Assembly: GCA_016125215.1 (NCBI GenBank)
Contig: WGMF01000027.1
Location: 1-35,836 of the forward strand
Direction of reading: 5' to 3'
Source of the DNA: Phycisphaera sp.
GTDB lineage: Bacteria > Planctomycetota > Phycisphaerae > Phycisphaerales > Phycisphaeraceae
DNA length: 35,836 nucleotides
This document shows, piece after piece, positions 1,512 to 21,989 of the stretch; the stretch's first letter is position 1, and every line of letters begins with the position of its first letter. The position numbers and the translations under genes are program-made. The notes beneath the pieces were generated by a model. The model searched no databases and was not told the origin of the DNA. It saw only the letters and a program-made list of their open reading frames with translations.

Positions 1512-2600
1512 ATGCTTGACCGCCTATCCACACACTGCATGCTCAAACCCGCTGACGTCGAGCCCCGCGATGCCCGGCTGAAGGTGGTCGGCGCGTTCAA
1601 TCCCGGCGCGGTGAAGTTCGGCCAGCGCGTGGCCCTGGTCGTACGCGTTGTCGAAGAGGTCGTCGAGCAGCGCGAGGGGTGGGTTTCCTCGCCACGCATC
1701 GACCCGTACGACGGCTCGCTCCACGTCGACTGGCTGCGCCCCGAGGAGCAGTACCTGAGCGACCGACGGATGTATACCAGCAAAAAGACCGGCATGTGCC
1801 GGCTGCGTTTCATCTCCCATCTGCGGGTCTATTTTTCCAGCGACGGCGTGAGCATCGACGGGGCTGGGGCTGTGATCGAACCGCGCGGCGAATTTGAAAC
1901 CTACGGCATCGAAGACCCGCGCATCACCGAGATCGGCGGACGCTTCTACATGACGTACGTCGCGGTGTCCGACCGCGGGGTGTGTACCTGCCTCATGTCC
2001 ACAACGGATTTTCAGTCCTTCGAGCGGCACGGCGTGATCCTGCCGCCGGACAACAAGGATGTCGTTTTGTTCCCCGAGAAAATCGCCGGCCAATACCTGT
2101 GCCTGCACCGGCCGATGCCCTCGTTTCGGATCAGCACGCCACAGGTCTGGTTGGCACAGAGCGACAACCTCATCCGATGGGGTGGCCACAAGCGATTGCT
2201 GGGGACTGAGAACTCGGTCCGTGACCGCGTCGGCGGCGGCACCCCACCCATCCGGACCGAGCGAGGTTGGCTGACGATCTACCACTCGAACGATCGACTG
2301 CCACCCGACGAGAAAGGCAACATGCGTCTGGCCTACACCGCTGGTGCTTTGCTCCTCGACCACCACGACCCCTCGAAGATCATCGGGCACACGCCCAGGC
2401 CGATCATCGTGCCCCGGGAGCCTTACGAGACGCACGGCTTTGTCGACAACGTGATCTTCCCCACCGGTATTGTTCGGCGGGGAGATGTATACCTGGTTTA
2501 CAACGGTGCCGCGGATGAAAATGTTTGCGTCATCGCTTACCCCGTCAAGGCCCTTGAAGAGTCGCCGCTTGCGGGGAACGGCGCGAAGACGGCTTCGTGA
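1512..2600 (+). CDS. Glycoside hydrolase family 130 (beta-mannoside phosphorylase or mannosidase)
   Basis: GH130 enzymes split beta-mannosides either with phosphate (releasing mannose 1-phosphate) or with water. The five-bladed propeller signature is clear. An NPG element is at residues 30-32. The GIEDPRIT motif at 132-139 contains the catalytic Asp135. There is a KDVVLFPEK segment near 183-190, GTPPI at 243-247, and a typical late block ending in VYNGAADENVCVIAY. There is no signal peptide, so it should act in the cytoplasm on imported oligosaccharides. The start at 1512 is chosen because AGGAG lies 8 nt upstream; an in-frame ATG at 1539 is the alternative. Length (362 aa) is normal for the family. 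Whether it is a phosphorylase or a hydrolase depends on phosphate-binding residues I cannot place with certainty. It is followed by repeat DNA, so it is probably transcribed alone. Confidence 0.9.
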   Translation: MLDRLSTHCMLKPADVEPRDARLKVVGAFNPGAVKFGQRVALVVRVVEEVVEQREGWVSSPRIDPYDGSLHVDWLRPEEQYLSDRRMYTSKKTGMCRLRFISHLRVYFSSDGVSIDGAGAVIEPRGEFETYGIEDPRITEIGGRFYMTYVAVSDRGVCTCLMSTTDFQSFERHGVILPPDNKDVVLFPEKIAGQYLCLHRPMPSFRISTPQVWLAQSDNLIRWGGHKRLLGTENSVRDRVGGGTPPIRTERGWLTIYHSNDRLPPDEKGNMRLAYTAGALLLDHHDPSKIIGHTPRPIIVPREPYETHGFVDNVIFPTGIVRRGDVYLVYNGAADENVCVIAYPVKALEESPLAGNGAKTAS

Positions 2601-2707
2601 CCCACGTCGATACGCGTGGGTCCTGTCAAGCATGGGCCGGTCCCGTTGATGCCCGTGCCCGTCGGCGGTGAAACGCCATCAACTTGAAGTGCATGCGCTG
2701 GGTCTCA

Positions 2708-2854
2708 GAAAGTGTGTGAGAAGCCAGACTGAAATCACGAGGGTGTGTATCTGGGTGCCACTGGCGGCTTGTCCGCCAGTGAAAAAGCCGTACATTTTAA
2801 GCACTGGCGGACAAGCCGCCAGTGACACACCCAGGCTTCTCACACGCTTTCTCA
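2708..2854. repeat. Nested inverted-repeat element (planctomycete-type palindromic repeat)
   Basis: The outer arms 2708-2725 and 2834-2851 are near-perfect reverse complements (one mismatch in 18). Inside are two short palindromes, 2759-2781 and 2802-2824, which are reverse complements of each other. Each has 9-bp arms built on CACTGGCGG. Smaller matching pieces (GGGTGTGT at 2741-2748 with ACACACCC at 2825-2832) lie between. The whole could fold into a long cruciform or hairpin. The core resembles a repeat common in planctomycete intergenic DNA; this is recalled, not searched. The right arm runs into the end of the adjacent regulator fragment. Confidence 0.8.
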
Positions 2855-3369
2855 GCCGCGTGGCGTGCCAAGCGTCGGCGATACTGCCCGGGTGTCATCC
2901 CCGTGGCGCGTCGGAAAAAAACATAAAACTGCTTGGGTGCCACGCCGCAGGCCTTGGCGACCTCGACCATGCCCGATTCGGATTTGGCCAGGAGGTTCTT
3001 GGCTCGCTCGATGCGCGCGCGTGTAATGGCGGTGTAGGGCAACTGCCCGATGGATTCTTTCATCCGGGCTTCGAGTTTCCGCCTTGAGACCCCCAGGTGA
3101 TCCAGCACCGCCTCGACACCGATCTCTTCGCCGCAGTGGTCCTGGATGAACGCCAGCGCCTGGGTGACGATCGGGTCATCGCTCACCATCACGTCGGGGC
3201 TCTTGCGAGTCACGACGCGCAGCGGCGATTGTCTATGCCACCGATAACAGGCAATACTGGCCGCACCGCAAGGTGCCGGTCCTTTCGCCTTCAATACATC
3301 GGGGTATCCCGCTCCGTTTGCCTTGAAGTTCACCGACACGGGGGGCGGCTCGGACGACTCCTTCGACAT
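2797..3369 (-). pseudogene. Truncated XylR-like regulator, AraC DNA-binding domain only
   Basis: Only the C-terminal part of a XylR-type regulator remains. The recognisable sequence starts near 3228 with PLRVVTRKSPDVMVSDDPIV, the linker before the helix-turn-helix region, and continues through LDHLGVSRRKLEARMKES and GMTPGQYRRR. It aligns by eye with residues from about 275 onward of the intact regulator at 20838-21989. The LacI-like sensor half is missing. The open frame extends upstream to an ATG at 3369, but those 47 residues are antisense to the pseudopilin fragment at 3248-3862 and do not look like regulator sequence. The last 18 or so residues (EKACEKPG onward) are encoded by the inverted-repeat element, which also gives the stop codon. 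It could be a free DNA-binding domain if expressed, but a decayed gene is more likely. Confidence 0.75.
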
Positions 3370-3862
3370 CCGACCGGACTTGGCACCTTATATCCCGCTC
3401 AACCTGCAATGCCCTTTGTGCCCGCAGAGAGACTTGATCACCTTGACAGATGCTTCGGTCATGATGCCCTACGCTTATTATATCGGATGGACGTTGACGC
3501 CAGGCGGACAAACCATGGCCAATATCAATGATGTCATGACCCAAGGTGGGTATGAGTTCGACATCATCGTGTGTGACCGAAACTACGCCTACAACGGCCT
3601 AAACGGCTATGTCTTCTGCCAAGCCAGCCACCCCGACATCAACACGAATATCATGCACTTGCTTCCGACCGGTATCTACGGCATTGGCAACACGCTCGAC
3701 CGTGGGCTGGTGGATATGAACTTCACCCGATGCGACGGCTCGACCTACCGCATCAATCAGGTCTCGGCCGACGATACCCGCCTCAAAAAAGTTGACTACA
3801 AATATGGCAACTCCGGCGTCTCTTTGAATATGGCCTGGACCATGTTGCCTTCGGTCAGATAG
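3248..3862 (+). pseudogene. Pseudopilin fragment, C-terminal part only
   Basis: The open frame starts right after a stop at 3245-3247 and has no ATG near its beginning (a TTG at 3323 is the first alternative start). It lacks the N-terminal methylation motif (FTLVELL) and hydrophobic helix that a pseudopilin needs. The remaining sequence has the look of the Phycisphaerae pseudopilin globular domain: FDIRPDLAPYI, QCPLCP, a Tyr-rich ASVMMPYAYYIGW segment, and near the end DMNFTRCDGSTYRI, which matches the conserved DG turn. Compare the intact gene at 15977-16876. The break coincides within about 20 bp with the break of the opposite-strand regulator fragment, so both 5' ends were probably lost in one event. 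The BNR_4 gene follows 241 bp downstream on the same strand. Confidence 0.65.
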
Positions 3863-4103
3863 AATCATCCCCCGATCAAAACCTATTCTTATGGTGGAGT
3901 TTTGCCCCTGTCTATCCGCCGATTGTGTTTCGGATGACAAGGTAGATTCCCGGGTGGGGTCGGATAGGAATGAAACAGTGAATCCACTCCGTGATGCTGT
4001 GTGATACCTGACGTGGCAAGCGTTCATCTTATGGACAACCCGACATTCGAGAAAACATGCCCGGTTAGATGAACCATGACATGAACATTATGATCTGGGA
4101 CAA

Positions 4104-5474
4104 ATGATGCGTTATTGGCTGTGTTTATTGGTGTTGGGCGGGCTTGTTCACGCTGTCTTAGCCGACGAAAACCACGACACGACGGACCCACCCCTCAAAG
4201 GGCCGAGGGTTCTGGAAACGGTCGTGGTGGACAAAATCTGGTCCGCGGTGTCGGTGCGGTTTTGCCTGCTCACGCACGGCGACATGCAGTACGTCGCCTA
4301 CTACGACGCCGACCGCAACATGGCGGTGGCGCAGCGTAAGCTCACCGAGTCTGCGTTCCGGGACAAGACCGTCCTGCCCTCGAAGCAGGGGTGGGACTCG
4401 CACAACTACATCACCATGGCGGTGGACAGCGAGGGGTACCTCCACCTCTCGGGCAACATGCACGCGGTGGCGCTGGTCTATTTCCGCAGCGAAAAGCCCG
4501 GTGACATCACCACGTTGACCCAGGTGAAATCGATGGTCGGTGACAACGAGGCCCGCTGCACCTACCCCAAGTTCCTCCGGGATCGCCAGGGTAGAATGCT
4601 CTTCCACTACCGCAGCGGCGGCAGCGGCAACGGCAACGAAGTCTACAACATCTACGACGAAAAATCGCGGACCTGGAGCCGACTGCTCGACACGCCGCTC
4701 ACCGACGGGAAGGGTAAGATGAACGCCTACCAGGTCGGCCCCGATTACGGACCCGACGGGTATTACCACCTTTGCTGGGTCTGGCGGGACACCCCCGACG
4801 CCAGCACCAACCACGACCTGAGCTACGCGCGGAGCAAGGACCTGGTCCACTGGGAGAGCGCCGCGGGTGAGGCGATCAAACTCCCGATCACGCTGGACAT
4901 GACGGACCTCATCGTCGACCCGGTCCCGGTGAACGGCGGCCTGCTCAACGGCCTCCACCGCATCGGGTTTGATCCGCAGAACCGCCCGATCATCACCTAT
5001 CACAAGTACGACGACCAGGGCAAGAGCCAGGTCTACGCGGCGCGTTTCGAGTCCGGGTCGTGGAAGGTCCGCCAGCTCACGCAATGGGATTTCCGCTGGG
5101 TCTTCGGCGGCCGGGGGTCGCTGGGGTCCACGCCCAATCAAGTCGGTGTGGACGCTGTGAAATCAAACAACGGTCAACCGACCCTGTCCTTCGGCAGCAG
5201 CAGCGTCGGGTTCCACACCTGGGTGCTTGATGAACCAACCCTCCAACCCCTGCGCACGCTCCCCGAAGCGCCCAGGTATCCCCCTGAGCTGACGCGGGTG
5301 CAATCCAAGTTCCCGGGCATGGGCGTCATGTGGGTGGGCGATATCGGTGAGTCGACCCAGCCCGATGGCCGTTACTTTTTGCGGTGGGAATGCCTGGGCA
5401 AGCACGGCGACCGTCCGCGTGAGGAACCGCTGCCGGAGAGCAGCGACCTGGTGGTTTACAAAATCGGCCCGTGA
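4104..5474 (+). CDS. Secreted BNR_4-family beta-propeller protein, putative polysaccharide lyase or glycosidase
   Basis: This is a member of the BNR_4 propeller superfamily, which includes ulvan lyases (PL24, PL25) and the GH145 rhamnosidases. A signal peptide ends near residue 20 (VHAVLADEN). Characteristic blocks follow: HNYITMAVDSEGYLHLSG then NMHAVALVYFRS, CTYPKFLRDRQGRMLFHYR followed by SGGSGNGNE, and HLCWVWRDTPDASTNHDL. These contain the His, Tyr and Arg residues typical of the family's active-site faces, but I cannot assign the catalytic set. Two adjacent ATGs (4104, 4107) are possible; the ribosome site is weak. It sits 175 bp upstream of the ABC importer genes on the same strand, which fits extracellular release of oligosaccharides for import. 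There is no PEP-CTERM tail, unlike the relative at 14502-15926, so it is probably periplasmic or released. Superfamily is sure, reaction type is not. Confidence 0.85.
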   Translation: MMRYWLCLLVLGGLVHAVLADENHDTTDPPLKGPRVLETVVVDKIWSAVSVRFCLLTHGDMQYVAYYDADRNMAVAQRKLTESAFRDKTVLPSKQGWDSHNYITMAVDSEGYLHLSGNMHAVALVYFRSEKPGDITTLTQVKSMVGDNEARCTYPKFLRDRQGRMLFHYRSGGSGNGNEVYNIYDEKSRTWSRLLDTPLTDGKGKMNAYQVGPDYGPDGYYHLCWVWRDTPDASTNHDLSYARSKDLVHWESAAGEAIKLPITLDMTDLIVDPVPVNGGLLNGLHRIGFDPQNRPIITYHKYDDQGKSQVYAARFESGSWKVRQLTQWDFRWVFGGRGSLGSTPNQVGVDAVKSNNGQPTLSFGSSSVGFHTWVLDEPTLQPLRTLPEAPRYPPELTRVQSKFPGMGVMWVGDIGESTQPDGRYFLRWECLGKHGDRPREEPLPESSDLVVYKIGP

Positions 5475-13077: not shown

Positions 13078-14502
13078 TCACCGGGTCTTGAGGTCCAGCA
13101 CGCGCAGCGCTGTGGGCTTGTGATCGCTGCCCTGTCCCTCCTGCACCAGCACGGAAAGAATCCCCTCGGATTCCCAGAGCGCAGGGTCGGCCAACGGCTC
13201 GGTGAAGAACGGGCCTTCTTCTGAATAGACCCGCTGCCAGTCGTTCCACTCGCTTTCCGCAGTGGCGGCGAAGACCTCGAATCGCCGGGCTTTCTGTGCG
13301 ATCATGTAGGCGGTGTCGTCTTTGCCAAAGAAGAGTTTGGGCCGAGCACCACCGCCGCCGGGCAGTCTGCTCATCACCCACTGACCGGGGCCTTTACGCC
13401 AGTAGTGAAAGTAGGCGGAGGGTTTCGTCTTGGAATTTGCGTTTGGGTGGGCTGGATCATCGGGCGCGGTAAAACCCTCGGGGACCACGTCGGCGTAGTG
13501 ACGCAGGATCGTGTGGATGCGCCCCTGCGAATCGACCGCCTGGCAACATTGATTAGCCAGCCCGCTGTCCATGGGGATCTTGAGCGCCGTGATGCCCGGC
13601 GTGTCCACACGCAGCGGAGACGGGACCGTCTGGTCCAGGTCATTGCGCCACGTCTTGCCCCGGTCTTCACTGTAGGCGTACATCAAATCGTGGTTGGTGT
13701 TGGCGCGACTGGTTTCGCGCCAGACCCACGTCACGTGCATGCGACCCTTCGGGCCGTAGGTGTAGCCATTCGGGTAAGAACAGCGGTTCTTGTCGTTGGG
13801 GTCCTTGTAGACCCCCGCGCCGGAGTCGAGTTGCACAGGATTACTCCACGTCGCGGTGGTGGGGTCATAGGTGTGCATCCACATGTTCCCCCCGCCGGAC
13901 GCGCCGCCGCGGTAGAACATCTGCAGCTTGCCCTCGGGCGTGGCGACAAAGCGCGGGTAGGTCAGACCCCCGATCCGCTTATTGGCCAACTCATCACGGA
14001 CCGGCCCGAACAGCGAGGCGTCCCATTTTGTTTCTTTGGGTCTGTCCGCCACGCCTTTTTTTGAAACACGGTAGTGTAGAAGACTCGTGTGGTGGTCAAA
14101 GGCCAGGTGGATCGTGCCGTCGCCGGGGCAGATGCCCATCGAGATGAAGTTGTGCCCGTCGTTGTTCTTGAAGAGATAATCCGTGAAGCGGATGACCTGC
14201 CACTCCCCCGCGGGGCGCTCACGACGGGCAAGGCAGACGTGACGGTCGGCGTCGTAGTAAGTGGCGTATTGGTAGCCGTTGTACGTGAGGATCGCTTCCT
14301 GTTGACCGGTGACGCCGTTGATGACCGGGCCGTATTTACGAGGGCCGAACTTCGGGTCGCCCAGGACCAGGGCCTTGGCGTCCACGACCGTATCGCCGAC
14401 CTTCTCGATTTTGATCTCCGCCCTCGCCGGGGGCGCAAGCATCACGAGCAATACCACGAACAACACCACGGGTAACGCGATTCGTAGAACAACATTTCCC
14501 AT
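13078..14502 (-). CDS. Secreted BNR_4-family beta-propeller protein, putative ulvan-lyase-like enzyme
   Basis: Second BNR_4 propeller protein. A signal peptide with a long hydrophobic core ends at PPARAE near residue 29. Family blocks are clear: GHNFISMGICPGDGTIHLAF followed by DHHTSLLHYRVS, LTYPRFVATPEGKLQMFYRG followed by GASGGGN, and GRMHVTWVWRETSRANTNHD. The pattern fits the PL24/PL25/GH145 superfamily; of the three copies here this looks most like the ulvan-lyase side, but that is an impression, not a search. The ATG at 14502 shares its A with the TGA of the upstream gene, a TGATG junction that indicates translational coupling; a GTG at 14505 is an alternative. No PEP-CTERM tail is present, so the product is periplasmic or released, unlike its coupled partner. 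Confidence 0.85.
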   Translation of the reverse strand: MGNVVLRIALPVVLFVVLLVMLAPPARAEIKIEKVGDTVVDAKALVLGDPKFGPRKYGPVINGVTGQQEAILTYNGYQYATYYDADRHVCLARRERPAGEWQVIRFTDYLFKNNDGHNFISMGICPGDGTIHLAFDHHTSLLHYRVSKKGVADRPKETKWDASLFGPVRDELANKRIGGLTYPRFVATPEGKLQMFYRGGASGGGNMWMHTYDPTTATWSNPVQLDSGAGVYKDPNDKNRCSYPNGYTYGPKGRMHVTWVWRETSRANTNHDLMYAYSEDRGKTWRNDLDQTVPSPLRVDTPGITALKIPMDSGLANQCCQAVDSQGRIHTILRHYADVVPEGFTAPDDPAHPNANSKTKPSAYFHYWRKGPGQWVMSRLPGGGGARPKLFFGKDDTAYMIAQKARRFEVFAATAESEWNDWQRVYSEEGPFFTEPLADPALWESEGILSVLVQEGQGSDHKPTALRVLDLKTR

Positions 14503-15926
14503 CACCGCCGTCTCCGTGCGAATACAAACAGGCTACTGATCCCCAGCAGCGCCAGCGACGCCGGCTCGGGGACCAGCGAAGCAAAGTAGCCACGCGCGTC
14601 GAACTCGAAGAGCGACAAGGTCTTGGCGTCGCCGCCGGTCGATTGGAACAACATGCTGATGACGCCGTCGCGTTGCCAGCGTTCGAGGTCGTAAGTCGGG
14701 TCAAGGCTGTAACCCGACGCCGCCAGGGTGATGAAGTCCCAATGCTCGCGGTCCATGCTGTGCGCCAAGACAAGGTTGCCCAGACTCGTGCCCGCGATGA
14801 GCACCAGCACTTGGCCGTCCTCGTTGACCATCACCGCCGGCCGCCGACCCGCGGATTCCCCGCCGGTGAATTGCGTGATCTGTGACACGTGCCAGTCCGT
14901 GCCATCGAACCACTCGAGCATCTGCTGCGCCTGGTCGTTGCCGCTGCCAGCCCCCGGTGCCCATCGGCTGGCAACGATCGGCTGATTGTTCTGGTCCACC
15001 GTCATTGAAGTCTGATTGATGTAGCTGTAGTTCTGTGGGATCGAGACCACGAGATCACTCGTCGATTGCGTGATCGTGCCAGCATAAGGCGTGCCGTCGT
15101 CTTTCTTCCATGTGACGCCGTCGTCTTCGGACACCGCGTAATACAGGCCGTGGTTGGTCTGGAACGTGCTCGAACTCGAACGGAAGAGCCAGCTCAGGTG
15201 AATCTTGCCCTCCGAGTCCACCGTGGGTGTGTTCCAGTAGGCGTTTGTCGTTTCCGAGTCCACACCGGAGACATAGCCGTCGATCAGCGGTTGCTTCACG
15301 ACGGACCACGTGTCGGTCGCGGTGTCGTAACGGTTGAGGCGCAGGTCGCCGTTGCCCGAGACGCCGTTTCGGTAGAAAAAGAGCAGGTCGCCGTCGGCGA
15401 GCTTCACGAACTCGGGGTAGGTGACTTGCGTTTCGTTGCCCGTCATGCCGGTGGAACCGAGGTTCGATGTGAAGCTGATCGACGAGCCGGGCGAGAGCAC
15501 CGACGCGGTGGACTTGGCGTAGTTCGTCCCGCCGCCCTGGTTGGCGTGCATGCCCCAGGACATGTGCATGATCCCGTCGCCGTCGACCGCGATGGAGATC
15601 ACGTCGTGCGAGTCGGTGATGTTGTTGGAGAGGAAGTTCGTCTCGCTGAGCGTCCACGCGTCCGAACTGATCGTCCGCCGGGCGATCACGACGTGCCCGT
15701 CGTACCCGTCGTTGGCGGTCGTGTCGGGTTCATAAAAGGCGACAAACTGCTGGTCGCCGACGGTCGTGACGTTGTTGCGCGCAAAGCTCGTGCCGTTGAT
15801 GGTGTTGTTGCCGTAGGCCGTGCCGATCGGGCTGGTGTGAAGATAATCACTCACCAGCACGTCACCGGCGTGGGCGAAACTCACGGTGATAAACAGAACA
15901 AATAAAACGGGGTACAGACGGGCCAT
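14502..15926 (-). CDS. BNR_4-family beta-propeller protein with PEP-CTERM sorting tail
   Basis: Third BNR_4 propeller protein. A signal peptide ends near residue 20 (VSFAHAGDV). Typical blocks are SHDVISIAVDGDGIMHMSWG then MHANQGG, VTYPEFVKLADGDLLFFYRN then GVSGNG, and GKIHLSWLFRS. The C-terminus is VPEPASLALLGISSLF followed by a membrane stretch and RRRR, a complete PEP-CTERM signal. PEP-CTERM proteins are cut by an exosortase and held at or passed through the envelope, so this enzyme should be displayed while its coupled partner is free. A purine-rich ribosome site (GAGAGAGG) precedes the ATG. The gene lies 50 bp after the pseudopilin gene and overlaps the next gene by one base (TGATG), suggesting one operon. 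Enzymatic activity is inferred from family only. Confidence 0.88.
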   Translation of the reverse strand: MARLYPVLFVLFITVSFAHAGDVLVSDYLHTSPIGTAYGNNTINGTSFARNNVTTVGDQQFVAFYEPDTTANDGYDGHVVIARRTISSDAWTLSETNFLSNNITDSHDVISIAVDGDGIMHMSWGMHANQGGGTNYAKSTASVLSPGSSISFTSNLGSTGMTGNETQVTYPEFVKLADGDLLFFYRNGVSGNGDLRLNRYDTATDTWSVVKQPLIDGYVSGVDSETTNAYWNTPTVDSEGKIHLSWLFRSSSSTFQTNHGLYYAVSEDDGVTWKKDDGTPYAGTITQSTSDLVVSIPQNYSYINQTSMTVDQNNQPIVASRWAPGAGSGNDQAQQMLEWFDGTDWHVSQITQFTGGESAGRRPAVMVNEDGQVLVLIAGTSLGNLVLAHSMDREHWDFITLAASGYSLDPTYDLERWQRDGVISMLFQSTGGDAKTLSLFEFDARGYFASLVPEPASLALLGISSLFVFARRRR

Positions 15927-15976
15927 TTCTAAAGCCTCTCTCCCAAAAAAAAAACCACGACTTACGGTGTGGCGGG

Positions 15977-16876
15977 CTACTCACGCCAGTCCTTGGGGAA
16001 GAAGATCGGCTCGGCCCCGCCCTCCGTTTTCGAGCCCATGTTCATCGTGACCTTGAATTCCGCGGGTTCGAAGGTGAAATCTTTGACGCTTCCATCCGTG
16101 AAGGCATAGTTGGTTGTGGCCGGTCCCGTGTTCCAGACCAGCCATGTTTTCTGCTTGGTGAGGTAGTAATCTCCGCGCCCATGGTTGGTCAGAACCTTCG
16201 AACCCGAGCCGCCGTATCGCTGGCACCGATCAGAAGCCACGATGCTGTAAGAGCCGCTGATCCCGCTCCACCCAGTGTCCGCGTAGAAATACATCTTGCT
16301 GTCGATCTTCTGGATAAGTTTGGATTCTTTGATCGCGTATTGTTCCGTGGTCGTGGGGTTCCCACTGGAGTTCGTCGAAGTGGCGGTTTGATTACTCCCC
16401 TGCGCGTTGATGCGGTTGGCGTAGAAGCTGTAGAGCGGGAGGTCCAGACTCATGTTAGTGCTCATGTCATACAACCCCACGCCGGGGCACCACAGGGCCG
16501 AGGTCAGGCGAGGGTCCATGCTTTTAGCGCCACTGATGTACGGGATCAGTTCCGGGGAATCGCCAGCGTACGTGCCCGTGGGGATGATCGGCCTGACGTG
16601 ATTGTTGGCGTCGAGCATGAACTTTTGTGTGCCCGAAGGCCATGAGGTGATGTGGTAGGGATACCACTTTCGGCTGTCCAGCGCATAGGTCGTGTGGGCG
16701 ATGGTCAACTGCCGCAGATTGCTCTTGCACTGAGTCAGACGCGCAATGTACCTGGCTTTCTCGAAAGCCGGCAGGAGCAGTGCGACAAGCAGCACCACGA
16801 TCGTGATGACCACAAGCAGTTCCACAAGGGTGAAGGCCCTGGGTTGGGGGGACGACGTGGGGTGCTTGCGTGTCAT
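15977..16876 (-). CDS. Pseudopilin (type II secretion/prepilin-type protein)
   Basis: A prepilin-type protein. After a basic leader comes [20 protein letters not shown] (residues 14-33): the methylation motif with Phe15 as first mature residue and Glu19 as the conserved fifth residue. The residue before the cut is Ala instead of the usual Gly. The globular part has [11 protein letters not shown] and near the end [12 protein letters not shown], the DG turn common in planctomycete pseudopilins. Its role would be a minor or major subunit of a secretion pseudopilus in the inner membrane and periplasm. No other secretion genes are in the window. It is first in a likely operon with two BNR_4 enzymes. 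A fragment of a second pseudopilin lies at 3248-3862, also beside a BNR_4 gene. GAGGG about 10 nt upstream is a plausible ribosome site. Confidence 0.88.
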
Positions 16877-16936
16877 GGTTCGGACCCTCGAAAGTTTTCA
16901 CATGCCCTGATCGTGTGGAGGCTCGGATCGTGAAAA

Positions 16937-16968
16937 CGGCTGTGCGACTTTTTTCGTTCGCACAGCCG
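16937..16968 (-). terminator. Hairpin, likely terminator of the PEP-CTERM gene at 17018
   Basis: The arms 16937-16947 and 16958-16968 are perfect 11-bp reverse complements (core CGGCTGTGCGA) with a 10-base loop. Read on the minus strand, the hairpin is followed at once by TTTT. It lies between the end of the PEP-CTERM gene at 17018 and the start of the pseudopilin gene at 16876, so it should end the former transcript and separate the two units. Confidence 0.7.
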
Positions 16969-17017
16969 CTGGAGGAGGATCAAACGGTATCGTGAATGTG
17001 CGTGAATGTACCCATGA

Positions 17018-17824
17018 TTATTTCCGCCGGGGCAGCAAGAGCAGGCCACCGAAGCCCATGAGCGCCAGCGACGCGGGCTCGGGGATGGTCGTGAAGGCCA
17101 GGTCATCAAACCCGCTGCTGGAGGCGCTGCCGTCCGAGACCGCGATGACGATCTGGGCGATTTTGTTGGTGTTCTGGGCGGTGGCGTCCCAGCCGACGTA
17201 GATTTCCGGCCAGGAACCGTCCGTGGAGGTGTCCGCACCGGTGCCTGTCGTCGCGGTGGCGTCGCCGGCCAGATTCAGGAACTGCGTGATGGTGTTGCCG
17301 CCTGAATCCTTGAAGGTGACGTCGAAGTGCCTGATCGAACTGTTAAGGACTTGCGTGAGGACGAAACCCGCCGCATCGACGGTTTGGTCGGCGGTGAACG
17401 TGCTGCCATTCCATGTGCCGAACGAGATCGTGAGAACAGGTGTGACCGACCCGTCGTTATCGAAAAGAAGAGCGCTGCCTGCGGATGAATTGAAGTTGTC
17501 CGAAGTGATGGCACCGCCGGCGTCGGGGTCGTCGGTGGTCATCGCAAAACGAATGTCAGGCAAGGTGGGGTCGGTGAAGGCTACGATGTTGCCCCCCGAT
17601 CCGCCCGTGAAGCCGGCGAAGTCCTGCATGACTTTCAGGTCGCTGCGTGCTTCGAGCGTCGCCTGCGACGTGCCCCACGATTCATCGGGAGCCGATGTCA
17701 CGTCCTGCACCCCGGCGGGGTCGATCACCGTGTAGAGGGTGGGATCGGAAATGGTCGCGGCATGGGCTGAAACGATCAAACCCGCCGAAGCGACCAGCGA
17801 GGTGGCAAAGGTGCGTGCTTTCAT
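17018..17824 (-). CDS. PEP-CTERM sorting-domain protein
   Basis: A secreted protein of 268 aa. The signal peptide is basic then hydrophobic and ends near SAHAATI (residue 22). The tail is IPEPASLALMGFGGLLLL followed by PRRK, a full PEP-CTERM signal: PEP motif, membrane helix and basic end. The middle is rich in Thr, Ser, Asp and Gly, with short beta-like stretches and segments such as FDVTFKDSGGNTITQFLNL; I do not recognise a named domain. A strong ribosome site (TCAGGAGG) lies upstream and is shared with three of the other PEP-CTERM genes nearby. A promoter with a two-half-site operator lies about 90-160 bp upstream (17917-17983) and a hairpin terminator just after it, so it is probably a single-gene unit. 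Its role could be adhesion, glycan binding or matrix, none of which is shown. Confidence 0.85.
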   Translation of the reverse strand: MKARTFATSLVASAGLIVSAHAATISDPTLYTVIDPAGVQDVTSAPDESWGTSQATLEARSDLKVMQDFAGFTGGSGGNIVAFTDPTLPDIRFAMTTDDPDAGGAITSDNFNSSAGSALLFDNDGSVTPVLTISFGTWNGSTFTADQTVDAAGFVLTQVLNSSIRHFDVTFKDSGGNTITQFLNLAGDATATTGTGADTSTDGSWPEIYVGWDATAQNTNKIAQIVIAVSDGSASSSGFDDLAFTTIPEPASLALMGFGGLLLLPRRK

Positions 17825-17916
17825 GATGATGAGCCTCCTGAGAAGCGATTGACCAAGCTTGAGGGAAAGGATCTTGGCAGTTCCGACAGGCTGCTACCAT
17901 CCCCGCATATGTCCAA

Positions 17917-17983
17917 ATTATGTCACAGATTGAGTTGAAAACAATCCCCGTTTTGCGCAACTTTGTGTCTGTTGGCGCAAATA
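17917..17983 (-). promoter_or_regulatory. Promoter and two-half-site operator A, upstream of the PEP-CTERM gene at 17824
   Basis: Read on the minus strand: half-sites TTGCGC at the complements of 17975-17980 and 17955-17960 (20 bp apart), a 10-nt gap, -35 TTGTTT (17939-17944), a 16-nt spacer and -10 CATAAT (17917-17922). The start codon at 17824 would be about 85 nt after the transcript start. Two other blocks (19628-19693, 20752-20817) have the same parts at the same distances. AraC-type activators bind tandem half-sites about 20 bp apart just before the -35, so this fits an activator site. A 12-bp palindrome, TAACGCGCGTTA (17984-17995), abuts the distal half-site and includes the stop codon of the next gene. 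Confidence 0.7.
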
Positions 17984-17992
17984 TAACGCGCG

Positions 17993-18745
17993 TTACACCC
18001 TTTTCCGCCGCGATAGCAAGAGCAGGCCACCGAGGCCCATGAGCACCAGCGACGCGGGCTCGGGAAGGGGAGCCTCAGTGCCGGTGATGGTTACCGAGTT
18101 CAGGTAGCCACGGTCGTTTTCGCTGTTGTAACCGGTCTCTTCGTAGAGGATGCCGATGTTGCTGATGGCACCCGCGGCCAGGTTCCCAGCGGTACCACTG
18201 ATGCTGCCGGTCGCAAAGCCGTTGGTCAGGTTGATTTCGCCGGTCCAGACATGCCAGATGCTGGAGGAGACAACCAGGTTGTGCGTGGTGTTGGAGCTTG
18301 TCCCGCTACCGTTTAATACGGGTTGGATCACATTGGATGCGTAGATGGTGCTGCCGACCTGCAAAACCACTCGCCATTGATTTTGGGGGGTGGTGCTGTT
18401 GTCAACAACGTGCTCGTTGAAACTGATGGTCAGGTCATTCAAATAATTGGTCGGGTCGATTGAGCCGGCATCGGAGAGCATGACGATATCGATCCCTCTT
18501 GAGTCGGCCTTCGTGGTTCCGGAAGAGATAAAAAAGTAGTTGGAAGCACTTGCATAGAGGGGGTCAGTGGTCGAAGTGCTGTAGTTAGTGCCGGCCTGTG
18601 TGTATCCGGTCCATCCAAACGCGCTCACGGACGTCGCGGAAGCGGTGACGAAGTTCTCCGAGTAGATCGTGGCGGCTTGCGTAGCGCCGACGGCTGAGCC
18701 AAGGCCCAGGACGGCGGCGGCGGTAAGGGTTCGGATGCTGTTCAT
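17993..18745 (-). CDS. PEP-CTERM sorting-domain protein
   Basis: A secreted 250-aa protein. The start at 18745 is chosen because AGGAGG (18755-18760) lies 9 nt before it; the frame opens 14 codons further upstream without support. The signal peptide (MNSIRTLTAAAVLGLGSAVG) ends near TQAATI. The tail LPEPASLVLMGLGGLLLL plus SRRKRV is a PEP-CTERM signal. The middle has the look of a beta-sandwich: ENFVTASATSVSAFGWTGY near the start, then LNDLTISFNEHVVDN. It may be a jelly-roll or LamG-like domain, but I cannot assign one. The signal peptide closely resembles that of the next gene upstream (VLGLGSAVG in both) although the passengers differ. The 107-bp gap to that gene shows no strong promoter, so the two may share the transcript from 19628-19693. 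Confidence 0.85.
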   Translation of the reverse strand: MNSIRTLTAAAVLGLGSAVGATQAATIYSENFVTASATSVSAFGWTGYTQAGTNYSTSTTDPLYASASNYFFISSGTTKADSRGIDIVMLSDAGSIDPTNYLNDLTISFNEHVVDNSTTPQNQWRVVLQVGSTIYASNVIQPVLNGSGTSSNTTHNLVVSSSIWHVWTGEINLTNGFATGSISGTAGNLAAGAISNIGILYEETGYNSENDRGYLNSVTITGTEAPLPEPASLVLMGLGGLLLLSRRKRV

Positions 18746-18852
18746 GTTAGATTTCCTCCTGAATAACGGGCATGGGAAACGATTCACTGGTCTGCGAAAG
18801 AATCAGGTTGGTATGCTGAATACAAAAAGAGATCGATAAACATTCGTAGGTT

Positions 18853-19530
18853 TCACTTCTTGCGTCGGGGCAGCATGAGCAGGCCGCCAAGTCCCATCAG
18901 GACCAGCGACGCGGGCTCGGGGATGGTGGTCAGTTCCAGCTTCGGGCTGTTCAATACAGAGTTGCCGGCGGCTTCAGCGCGGGTGATGGCGATGGTGACC
19001 ACGTCGTTGGTATCAGCCTGGATGAAGCTCAACATCGCTGCACTGGAAAAACTGTATTCCCCGCCGTCCTTGTTGAAGGTGGCTGAGCCGAGGTAGGTGG
19101 TCTGTGCCTGATCCAACAGTTCGCTGTTCGCTTCACTCGAGCCATCGTAGAGCGAGTTAGCGTGCGAAGGGTCGTATGTGGCTTGCACGAACAATTCGTC
19201 ATCGTAGCTGTCGTAGGCTTCTTTGACGCCCCAGAAGTAGAAAGTGAAGCTTGTTGACGTGACTGCGGCCCACGTCCCGGGAGTCAACTTCAGCGATGCC
19301 GTATCTACACTCGCACCAAAGTCCGTTGAGTCGAAACGGATCAGACCGAACCGATCGGTTGTGCCGGCGGCCTCATTCTTTGGATGGACGCTGCTGGTTT
19401 CCTTTACGGGGCCACGCTTGATTGATGCAAAATCGTGGAGATCAACCGTGATCAACGCAGCTTGTGCAGTCCCGACGGCCGAGCCAAGGCCCAGGACGAC
19501 AGCGAGGGTAAGCGTTTGGATTCGGGTCAT
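18853..19530 (-). CDS. PEP-CTERM sorting-domain protein with DNRLRE-like passenger
   Basis: A secreted 225-aa protein. The signal peptide is MTRIQTLTLAVVLGLGSAVG, ending near AQAALI; the tail is IPEPASLVLMGLGGLLML plus PRRKK. The passenger has features of a DNRLRE/CBM96-like beta-sandwich: RFGLIRFDSTDFGASVDTAS followed by LKLTP near residues 60-85, and a late block ending in NSPKLELT just before the PEP motif. Such domains occur as carbohydrate-binding or stalk modules. That reading is tentative. The ribosome site TTTCAGGAGG precedes the ATG. The promoter-operator block at 19628-19693 ends about 98 bp upstream. It is probably the first gene of a two-gene unit with 17993-18745. Confidence 0.85.
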   Translation of the reverse strand: MTRIQTLTLAVVLGLGSAVGTAQAALITVDLHDFASIKRGPVKETSSVHPKNEAAGTTDRFGLIRFDSTDFGASVDTASLKLTPGTWAAVTSTSFTFYFWGVKEAYDSYDDELFVQATYDPSHANSLYDGSSEANSELLDQAQTTYLGSATFNKDGGEYSFSSAAMLSFIQADTNDVVTIAITRAEAAGNSVLNSPKLELTTIPEPASLVLMGLGGLLMLPRRKK

Positions 19531-19627
19531 GATGCATTACCTCCTGAAAACGGGTCGGACATTCGATTTCCACGCCGGAAACCATGAAACTTGGCAAAGC
19601 TCGACGAGGCTTTACCCACTGGAATGA

Positions 19628-19693
19628 ATTGTGCCACAGAAAAGAACGAAAACAATCCCCATATTGCGCAATCTTATTGCCTTGAGCGCAAAT
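19628..19693 (-). promoter_or_regulatory. Promoter and two-half-site operator B, upstream of the PEP-CTERM gene at 19530
   Basis: On the minus strand: half-sites TTGCGC (complements of 19686-19691 and 19666-19671, 20 bp apart), a 10-nt gap, -35 TTGTTT (19650-19655), a 16-nt spacer and -10 CACAAT (19628-19633). Every distance equals that of block A. The predicted leader is about 90 nt. The run AATGGGGATTGTTTTC-like just before the spacer is shared with A almost base for base, while the spacer sequences differ, which argues for conserved function rather than a recent copy. It lies directly behind the 60-codon PEP-CTERM gene at 19698-19880. Confidence 0.7.
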
Positions 19694-19697
19694 CGGC

Positions 19698-19880
19698 TCA
19701 GCGGACGCCCATACTCTTTCGGTAGGGCATCACGAGAACTCCGCCAAGGCCCAGCAATGCCAGCGACGCCGGCTCGGGGACGACTGTTAAGGAAAAGCTG
19801 GCCACTGTCGGGGAGGCGGCAAAGATCATCATCGTGAACCCCGCGATAACCGCCAAGATCTGGGTTTTGCAACGCGTCAT
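19698..19880 (-). CDS. Minimal PEP-CTERM protein: signal peptide and sorting tail with almost no passenger
   Basis: A 60-aa open frame that starts at an ATG (19880) with GGAG 8 nt upstream. It contains a complete signal peptide (MTRCKTQILAVIAGFTMMIF then AASPTVAS) and, only a few residues later, VVPEPASLALLGLGGVLV plus a basic end. After signal cleavage the part before the PEP motif would be about five residues. The tail is as well kept as in the full-length neighbours. It may be a relic of a gene that lost its middle, or a true small protein, for instance a decoy or a filler for the sorting enzyme. The C-terminal end MPYRKSMGVR is longer than usual. No promoter of the A/B/C type is seen before it. 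Confidence 0.65.
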   Translation of the reverse strand: MTRCKTQILAVIAGFTMMIFAASPTVASFSLTVVPEPASLALLGLGGVLVMPYRKSMGVR

Positions 19881-19991
19881 GAGACTGCTCCACTCCGAGA
19901 TGGGTTTGTGGGAAAATAACTCCAAGGAAATAAGATTGACCGGGATTTTTCCTGTCCCATCTCGCTCCCAACCGCAACATGTACGGTCAGA

Positions 19992-20657
19992 TTAACGCCT
20001 GCCGCGTCGAATCATCGCCAGCCCGCCGAGGCCAAGCAGCGCCAGCGACGCCGGCTCGGGGACGATCAACGATCCGGTCACCGCCACGTCGTCGACGCGG
20101 AAGGCGTCCAAGGCGTTGGTCAACGCGTTGTAGCTGTAAACTCGCCACTCGACGGGTTTATCCGTGTTGAAATCAGTGAAGTCGATCACGACGTGAGCCA
20201 TGAGGACAGGACTACCAGCCGTACCACCGGACTGAACAGTGGCGCTGGTGCCGGCTTCAATGAAGACTTGGCTGCCGCCATCGATCACATAAGAAACTGC
20301 GTATTTCTGGTCCGCGCGTACGCAGTTCTGGTAGAAATCGAATGTTTCATAGGTTACGGAGTCCGTCGGGCTGGTGGCATCCGTGGTGAAGGAGAAATAA
20401 TCGGTCGGTGTGGTTTCCTGGGCGTTAATCATCCGATAGTTGGGCGAGCCAGAGGGTCCTTTGTAGGAGGTGTTGTATGCGCCGCCGGAGGTGTTTGTGT
20501 CCGAGAAGTTGCTTGCCGTGATGCCGGCGAGCGTCGAAGTCGGGGCAAGCGTGCTGCCTGTAAAGTTGTATTGAACGATCACCGCGGCCTGGGCTGAACC
20601 CGCAGCCACAGATAACCCCGTTGCGGCCACCATCGCGAAGGTTTTGAAGTTGAACAT
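19992..20657 (-). CDS. PEP-CTERM sorting-domain protein
   Basis: A secreted 221-aa protein. The signal peptide (MFNFKTFAMVAATGLSVAAG) ends near SAQAAVI; the tail is VPEPASLALLGLGGLAMI plus RRGRR. The passenger begins VQYNFTGSTLAPTSTLAGIT, a start seen in many planctomycete PEP-CTERM proteins with a concanavalin-like or other beta-sandwich fold, and includes DSVTYETFDFYQNC and VEWRVYSYNALTNALDAFRV. I infer a beta-sandwich surface protein without a known ligand. The ribosome site TTCAGGAGG is strong. Promoter block C (20752-20817) is about 95-160 bp upstream, in the region shared with the divergent XylR-like regulator, so this gene is the likeliest direct target of that regulator. Confidence 0.85.
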   Translation of the reverse strand: MFNFKTFAMVAATGLSVAAGSAQAAVIVQYNFTGSTLAPTSTLAGITASNFSDTNTSGGAYNTSYKGPSGSPNYRMINAQETTPTDYFSFTTDATSPTDSVTYETFDFYQNCVRADQKYAVSYVIDGGSQVFIEAGTSATVQSGGTAGSPVLMAHVVIDFTDFNTDKPVEWRVYSYNALTNALDAFRVDDVAVTGSLIVPEPASLALLGLGGLAMIRRGRR

Positions 20658-20751
20658 GGCTTAGTCCTCCTGAAGAAGGTTTGCAGTTTCTCGTGGCGGA
20701 CGGGCATGACGGAGCCGGTTGCCGCCGACGATCCGAGTAAGAACACGCCCC

Positions 20752-20817
20752 ATTCTGACACGATCAAATCTCGAAACAATACTTCTAAAGCGCATTTTTA
20801 TTGCACTGGGCGCAAAT
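20752..20817 (-). promoter_or_regulatory. Promoter and two-half-site operator C, in the divergent region beside the XylR-like regulator
   Basis: On the minus strand: half-sites at the complements of 20810-20815 (TTGCGC) and 20790-20795 (ATGCGC, one change), 20 bp apart. Then come a 10-nt gap, -35 TTGTTT (20774-20779), a 16-nt spacer and -10 CAGAAT (20752-20757). The geometry equals blocks A and B. It drives the PEP-CTERM gene starting at 20657 with a leader of about 88 nt. Its operator also overlaps a possible plus-strand promoter for the regulator, so one bound protein could activate one side and repress the other. Confidence 0.7.
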
Positions 20818-20829
20818 ATGTGACATATT
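20801..20829 (+). promoter_or_regulatory. Possible promoter of the XylR-like regulator
   Basis: TTGCAC (20801-20806) and CATATT (20824-20829) are 17 nt apart and lie just before the regulator ATG at 20838. The -35 would sit between the two operator half-sites of block C. If right, the transcript is nearly leaderless. TATTAT (20826-20831) is an alternative -10. Weak evidence by itself. Confidence 0.35.
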
Positions 20830-20837
20830 ATGAGTTC

Positions 20838-21989
20838 ATGAATACCCAAAACACCCCCAAGCGGATTGCCCTGTGCGCACCGGGTCAGGACGAGATTGCC
20901 TTCCCGAGTTTCTCCGGTGTGCTCGAATACAAACAGAGAGTTGAGCACTGGCGGCTGCTGGCGAACGGGGAAAGCCCGATCTTTCAAGTCAGACAGATCG
21001 ACCTGAGTCAGGTCGATGGGGTGATTGGTTACATCCGTGACCCGCAGTGGGCCGCGACACTCGGTCAATTCCGTGTGCAGGCGGTCAACATCTCCCGCGC
21101 GATCTCCGGCGTCACGTTGCCCTGTGTCGCATCGGACGATGAAGAAGTGGGACGGATGGGGGCCAGGCACCTGTTGCAGCGTGGGTTCGTGCAGTTCGGT
21201 TTCGTGGGCTACTCGGACATGGGTTTTTCCAGTCACCGGATGGCCGGCTTCAAGGAAGCGCTTGGAGACGCCCCCGGTCGGCGGTTGTCCGAATATTCCA
21301 TCTCACTGGAAGAGTTACCCGACTGTGCGTCGCGCATCGGCGAATGGGTCGCCTGCCAGCCGCGTCCGCTTGCCCTCATGACCGCCAACGACCACCTCGG
21401 CCGACAGGTGATCGACGGGATTACGCAGGTGGGCCTGCGGGTGCCGCAGGATGTCGCGGTGCTGGGCGTGGACAACAACAAGTGGCAGGCCCAGATGGCC
21501 GGCACGCCCCTGTCGAGTGTCGAGCCCAACTGGCGACAGATCGGCTACGAGGCCGCCAAGTTGCTCGATGGCTTGCTCTCTGGGCAGGCGCCACCGACGC
21601 AGCCCGTCCTCATCGCGCCGCTGGGCATTGCGACCCGACAAAGCACCGACATCGTGGCTGCCGACGACCCGATCGTCTCGCAGGCGCTGCAGTTCATCTA
21701 CGACCGCTGCCACAGCGCCCTGCGCGTGGAGCACGTGCTGGACCACCTGGGCATCTCACGTCGAAAGCTGGAGATGCACCTCAGGAAACAGACCGGCCAA
21801 ACCCCGCAGCAGGCGATCTTCAGCGCCCAGGTCGAACGCGCCAAACGCCTGCTCGTTGAGACGGACGCCTCCACCTACGAGGTCTCCCAGCAATGCGGCT
21901 TCCTCCGGCAGGACCGCTTTTTCATCGTGTTCAAACGCCTGGCAGGCATGACCCCCGGGCAATACCGCCAGTGGGGCAAGCACCGGTGA
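20838..21989 (+). CDS. XylR-like transcriptional regulator (LacI-type sensor plus AraC-type DNA-binding domain)
   Basis: A 383-aa regulator. Residues about 8-270 form a periplasmic-binding-like sensor as in LacI/XylR: CVASDDEEVGRMGARHLLQR then GFVQFGFVGY, ALMTANDHLGRQVIDGI, and VPQDVAVLGVDNN. Residues about 280-383 form an AraC helix-turn-helix domain: LDHLGISRRKLEMHLRKQTG and the signature QDRFFIVFKRLAGMTPGQYR. XylR-type proteins bind a sugar in the sensor and switch genes through tandem half-sites. The start ATG at 20838 is chosen because the longer open frame upstream covers the promoter region. It is divergent from the PEP-CTERM gene at 19992-20657 and shares operator C with it. It ends 6 bp from the oppositely oriented sulfatase. 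The ligand is unknown; a breakdown sugar of the local polysaccharide is likely. Confidence 0.92.
   Translation: MNTQNTPKRIALCAPGQDEIAFPSFSGVLEYKQRVEHWRLLANGESPIFQVRQIDLSQVDGVIGYIRDPQWAATLGQFRVQAVNISRAISGVTLPCVASDDEEVGRMGARHLLQRGFVQFGFVGYSDMGFSSHRMAGFKEALGDAPGRRLSEYSISLEELPDCASRIGEWVACQPRPLALMTANDHLGRQVIDGITQVGLRVPQDVAVLGVDNNKWQAQMAGTPLSSVEPNWRQIGYEAAKLLDGLLSGQAPPTQPVLIAPLGIATRQSTDIVAADDPIVSQALQFIYDRCHSALRVEHVLDHLGISRRKLEMHLRKQTGQTPQQAIFSAQVERAKRLLVETDASTYEVSQQCGFLRQDRFFIVFKRLAGMTPGQYRQWGKHR

Follow-up and report, generated by a model that had tools for sequence, protein, structure and literature searches.

The closest described relatives of the two gene remnants examined here are XylR-like LacI/AraC hybrid regulators, in which a periplasmic-binding, sugar-sensing domain (Peripla_BP_3) is combined with an AraC-type DNA-binding domain (HTH_18), and pseudopilins carrying a prepilin signal at their start. 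The name XylR-like is assigned by domain order and by what we take to be the same arrangement in E. coli XylR. The window, that is, the whole stretch of 35,836 nucleotides analysed here, is contig C15 of a 4.04-Mb Phycisphaera sp. genome in 58 contigs, and it contains a remnant of each of the two gene types. The regulator remnant resembles the hybrids in its C-terminal HTH_18 domain and is 57% identical over ~120 amino acids to a full-length paralogue; it differs from them in that the periplasmic-binding domain is absent and the tail is replaced by repeat sequence. The pilin remnant resembles the pseudopilins of its own genome, of which all three scanned have the N_methyl start, over profile positions 91-277 of 282, and differs in being frameshifted and without the prepilin signal. 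The scar formed by these remnants is real: two divergent genes, both truncated at the 5' side, abut at one point. The locus shows truncated homologies, a tight joint and a frameshift, and the same genome holds the corresponding cassette order elsewhere as well as a second, similar scar. We are confident that the locus is a decayed copy of a recurrent cassette, produced by one deletion of ~2 kb or more with the enzyme gene retained.

The minus-strand open frame 2797-3369 (190 codons) matched HTH_18, the C-terminal AraC-type HTH, with an E value of 3.7e-17, and had 44 matches in its own genome at E ≤ 0.01, itself included. When searched with a profile of the 31 intact paralogues, only positions 267-388 of 390 were matched, from nt 3228 down to 2866, corresponding to a loss of ~266 positions. 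The nine best paralogue matches begin at residue 44, 46 or 48 of the frame (residue 48 being encoded by nt 3228-3226), and these paralogues have open frames of 387-457 amino acids, compared with 196 at the remnant; a weaker paralogue match, in C45, covers residues 4-166. Both the profile end and the paralogue starts bear out the earlier note, made from the sequence alone, which had found XylR-like sequence only below about 3228. The regulator remnant is thus confined to 2857-3228 (minus, 124 codons) and contains the AraC-type DNA-binding domain. The part covered by the profile match does not include the N-terminal periplasmic-binding domain; the missing part is the sugar-sensing part, since Peripla_BP_3 precedes the HTH in both intact paralogues scanned. 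The rest of the frame comes from other sources. Its 5' part (3229-3369, the first 47 codons) is the antisense of the pilin remnant and not XylR, as expected from the earlier suggestion that open frames crossing the junction are chimeric. Its 3' end (2797-2856) consists of 19 codons and a stop from a dispersed element and its flank; codons 172-190 are 84% identical to a stretch of C36 that is itself a copy of this element.

In a phylogenetic tree, the regulator fragment fell inside a clade of 10 rows, all from its own genome (support 99/94), with L065:4105-5286 as its nearest relative (support 88/87), the bootstrap being not fully settled. The fragment departs from the rest of the clade at 2 of the 23 positions that never vary among those nine; for each paralogue assessed in the same way, the figure is 1 or 2 of 22 or 23. 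Excess decay of the DNA-binding domain was not seen in this comparison, and either the domain is still used or the deletion is recent.

On the plus strand, a profile of 20 own-genome pilins matched in order and in two frames, first at positions 50-72 (3219-3287, E 0.0007) and then at positions 91-277 (from nt 3350, E 1e-11). Pairwise alignment with the nearest intact pilin (C23, 270 amino acids) followed the first frame as far as ~3284 and took up the second at nt 3266, so that the second piece, the C-terminal part, spans 3266-3862 up to its stop. Profile, pairwise alignment and sequence all place the frame change at 3276-3290; we read it as a frameshift, which could be a sequencing error. The C-terminal homology was also recovered in the own-genome pilin search (E 7.9e-11), and the open frame 3323-3862 alone (179 codons) gave no Pfam or NCBIfam family match. 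Among the 67 matches in the genome to TIGR02532, the prepilin N-terminal cleavage/methylation motif, none falls at C15:3200-3862. About 49 of the 282 profile positions are lost, the signal segment included; with this segment gone and the frame shifted, the remnant cannot make a pilin. These data revise two points of the earlier interpretation. The pseudopilin had been thought to start at about 3248, but this base merely follows a stop codon in the second frame, and homology begins at ~3219 in another frame; and the loss of the N-terminal half, which had been claimed for both genes, holds for the regulator and not for the pilin.

The two homologies meet or overlap at 3219-3228. The regulator homology ends at 3228 and the pilin homology starts at ~3219, the two coming together within ~10 bp and without filler. 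A 20-mer across the joint was present only in loci overlapping the window itself, and 14-mers around the joint had no other occurrence in 336 kb of own-genome sequence. With 40 of the 119 candidates scored, no repeat spanning the joint was seen; beyond the dispersed element, the sole other match of 2640-4100 ends at 3218. The scar is a case of ordinary gene decay, most likely by deletion, and a single deletion would be the simplest cause of the joint. In an annotation, both chimeric frames would pass for whole genes. Downstream of the pilin remnant lies a plus-strand gene for a BNR_4 protein (4104-5474), the enzyme gene left from the broken cassette; its only NCBIfam match is to alpha-L-rhamnosidase BT3686 at 208.8 bits, below the model cut-off of 700.

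Comparison within the genome reveals what the locus probably looked like. We counted as intact the 31 regulators of at least 350 amino acids in the stretches around the stronger matches, the weaker AraC-type matches lying outside this count, and combined sequence patterns with the PF07589 and TIGR02532 results; 66 of the 67 TIGR02532 matches were entered, one below cut-off (C25) being omitted, together with all 72 PEP-CTERM matches, 10 of them below cut-off. A divergent PEP-CTERM gene lies within 4.5 kb of 19 of the 31 regulators. In 14 the divergent PEP-CTERM gene or genes are followed by a pilin, with PEP-CTERM first in every case; by pilin density, ~0.037 per regulator or ~1.1 in all would be expected. 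Five more regulators (L072, L073, L074, L075 and L078:14509) have PEP-CTERM and then a pilin downstream in the same direction, and the remaining ones have PEP-CTERM or a pilin nearby, or neither. Eight of the nine intact members of the fragment's own clade have at least 1 kb of upstream sequence and could be tested. In all eight, the first divergent gene among PEP-CTERM, pilin and regulator genes is PEP-CTERM, at 37-197 bp, and in seven a pilin comes next, its distance from the start of the regulator being 1002-3866 bp. The exception is L065:4105-5286, the closest relative of the fragment, where the PEP-CTERM gene is present but no divergent pilin lies within 4.5 kb. The products of genes after the pilins include GH16, melibiase-like, sulfatase, esterase and BNR_4 proteins; for others, DUF6288 and FA_synthesis proteins among them, a role as glycan enzymes is not obvious; one, L072:1610-2980, is without a family match. 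Presumably the cassette serves polysaccharide use. The leftover parts of the broken locus (XylR minus, pilin plus, BNR_4 plus) fit the cassette in both order and orientation.

An intact cassette in the same window (13078-21989) mirrors the broken one, and both lead to BNR_4 genes. It starts with an intact XylR-like hybrid (20706-21989, plus), placed by tree and domains in the clade of the fragment, and continues on the minus strand with four PEP-CTERM genes (19992-20657, 18853-19530, 17993-18787 and 17018-17824), an intact pseudopilin (15977-16876) recognized by prepilin motif and domain scan, and two BNR_4 genes (14502-15926 and 13078-14505) that are 36% and 34% identical to 4104-5474. One of these two BNR_4 genes carries a PEP-CTERM tail of its own. 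In the broken cassette, the remnants abut and no PF07589 match was found at C15:2600-4100, in a search that overlooked one or more genuine PEP-CTERM genes elsewhere in the window, among them that at 19992-20657.

When the C-terminal halves of 22 pilins were used to search the genome, with matches accepted to E 1, 31 copies were found. Twenty-nine lie in frames of 282-376 amino acids, each with a TIGR02532 match upstream; the other two are without signal and in short frames (204 and 170), and both abut an XylR C-terminal fragment head to head. One of them is the pilin remnant described above and the other, at C24:18792-19118, belongs to a second scar at L078:9601-10122 (C24:18600-19121). Here a minus-strand XylR fragment covering profile positions 330-388, with ~59 codons kept, meets a plus-strand pilin fragment covering positions 205-281, and the scar is flanked by a GH95 gene and, on the opposite side, by a WbsX/GH99-like gene. 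As judged by eye against the nearest paralogues, XylR homology reaches ~9780 and pilin homology starts from ~9775, giving a joint at L078:9775-9780. The geometry is that of the window scar, with the fragments meeting within ~6 bp. The parts are different: the regulator belongs to another branch (68% over 59 amino acids to L065:5279-6571), the pilin is another one (56% to the C6 pilin), and an in-frame TAG is found in place of the frameshift. With n = 2, it may be chance or survivorship that both signal-less pilins end at an XylR fragment, enzyme-sparing deletions perhaps being the ones kept. A 7-mer, GCAGCGG, occurs near both joints (chance ~0.014) and was dropped because, by eye, at least ~14 bp separate it from the refined second joint. 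Another truncated XylR, the third (C19:850-1113; L091/L174), was not counted as an XylR/pilin scar because no pilin-profile match was present in 2500 bases at E 0.01. This fragment lies near a contig end and, by eye, adjoins a putative tyrosine recombinase sequence. Among the pilin frames, that at L072:3034-3957 starts with two tandem prepilin signal motifs.

In its intact form, the locus would have comprised an XylR-like sugar-sensing regulator, a divergent promoter region, one or more PEP-CTERM genes, the pseudopilin and, as is often the case, a carbohydrate-active enzyme. One deletion would then have joined the DNA-binding end of the regulator on the minus strand to the C-terminal end of the pilin on the plus strand, taking the sugar-sensing domain, the promoters between the divergent genes, the membrane and processing segment of the pilin and probably a PEP-CTERM gene, and sparing the enzyme gene 4104-5474. 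The size of ~2 kb or more would follow from the clade spacing of 1002-3866 bp together with the missing gene ends. The PEP-CTERM gene was probably deleted as well, because divergent PEP-CTERM precedes the pilin in 14 of 14 own-genome cases. As no orthologous intact locus was found in pilin searches of 61 genomes (relatives, with the own genome included) and 400 genomes of the order, we infer the lost interval and have not seen the deletion directly. At E 1e-8, weak pilin matches in the order came from two of the 400 genomes, own genome included. The genus is represented in the collection searched by one genome, the source's own, in which a BNR_4 search gave no orthologue; nor did a pilin scan of a genome collection from which the own or a very near genome may be left out. 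A BNR_4 protein scan of that collection, with the same possible omission, gave seven loci at 44-54% identity, whose stretches lack both pilin-profile matches and PEP-CTERM patterns and contain one XylR-profile match (L101, labelled Aeromicrobium).

A smaller event would suffice if the ancestor had been a directly adjacent divergent XylR/pseudopilin pair, a deletion of ~1 kb then removing only the gene ends and a short gap. This is a live rival because among 16 XylR loci of relatives, 3 (L131, L133 and L134) have the pilin directly divergent; 2 have the order XylR, PEP-CTERM, pilin, 3 have PEP-CTERM only, and 8 have neither divergent in the stretch covered, some of these lying at contig ends. 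We nevertheless regard such a pair as an unlikely ancestor, since PEP-CTERM comes first in every testable member of the fragment's clade and all 14 divergent own-genome pilins within 4.5 kb lie beyond a PEP-CTERM gene. The same evidence bears on the earlier proposal that a single deletion removed the space between two divergent genes: deletion still appears to be the simplest cause, and the wording of a mere space is probably wrong. The earlier interpretation was largely right, with corrections to where the pilin homology starts, to how much was lost and to what the lost interval held. An assembly chimera, or inversion or recombination between two cassettes instead of deletion within one, might be suspected in a 58-contig draft in which the two fragments have their nearest paralogues in different cassettes (C7 for XylR, at 57%; C23 for the pilin, at 33-37%). 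It seems very improbable given that no repeat crosses the joint in the sequence searched, that orientation and downstream enzyme are consistent with one cassette, and that the same type of joint recurs in C24. An orphan N-terminal half of XylR was also not found in a genome search that used the corresponding part of the nearest paralogue as its single query; all 32 places matched lie in open frames of 374-457 amino acids, 31 of them adjoining a C-terminal XylR match and the remaining one (C12:66514) being in a 374-amino-acid frame.

The regulator remnant could also be imagined to work as a stand-alone AraC-type DNA-binding protein, freed of sugar control and driving the neighbouring enzymes constitutively. 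Its intact DNA-binding domain is no less conserved than that of the paralogues, and 190 codons are open. We think this highly doubtful, as the frame begins in antisense pilin and finishes in a repeat, and the second scar retains just ~59 XylR codons. For the promoter type scanned, 2600-4110 gave 2 matches on both strands with 1.0 expected, a chance level, and the only minus-strand match (3914-3885) is within these chance numbers. Decay of a cassette by one larger deletion remains the reading we favour.

The locus shows a route by which such cassettes decay, and the recurrence of the scar and the cassette itself are its points of interest. A cassette that combines a sugar-sensing regulator with a surface protein, a pilin and an enzyme would be in line with a hypothesis reported in a review, namely that planctomycetes take up polysaccharides via pili built from dedicated pilin-like proteins (PMC12078418; Boedeker et al., 2017 cited therein). 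With a repeated unit of regulator, PEP-CTERM, pilin and often an enzyme at hand, pilus-aided uptake would become testable locus by locus. A literature search covering titles and abstract openings gave no description of this cassette. One might go further and view the cassettes as substrate-specific units of pilus-aided polysaccharide uptake, retired by a stereotyped regulator-to-pilin deletion in which switch, promoters and surface parts are lost and the spared enzyme passes to neighbouring control, the two scars being its traces; this is a speculative extension, to which we give little credence.

On its other side, the regulator remnant is convergent with a plus-strand GH130-type gene (1512-2600), assigned by domain match. 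Between them lies the dispersed, MITE-like inverted-repeat element (2708-2851, 144 bp), which is flanked by 3-bp TCA duplications at 2705-2707 and 2852-2854 and has its inverted ends at 2704-2725 and 2834-2855. A search with the element ends gave 24 matches at ≤ 3 mismatches, six pairs of which are spaced at the element's own length. Identical 3-bp flanks were found in 14 of the 19 copies read, the window copy included, and 13 of these 14 are TNA. In its inverted-repeat ends, shortness, copy number and 3-bp flanks, the element resembles MITEs with 3-bp TNA target duplications; presumably it belongs with IS5-type MITEs of the IS1031 group. Many copies of it are present across the genome.
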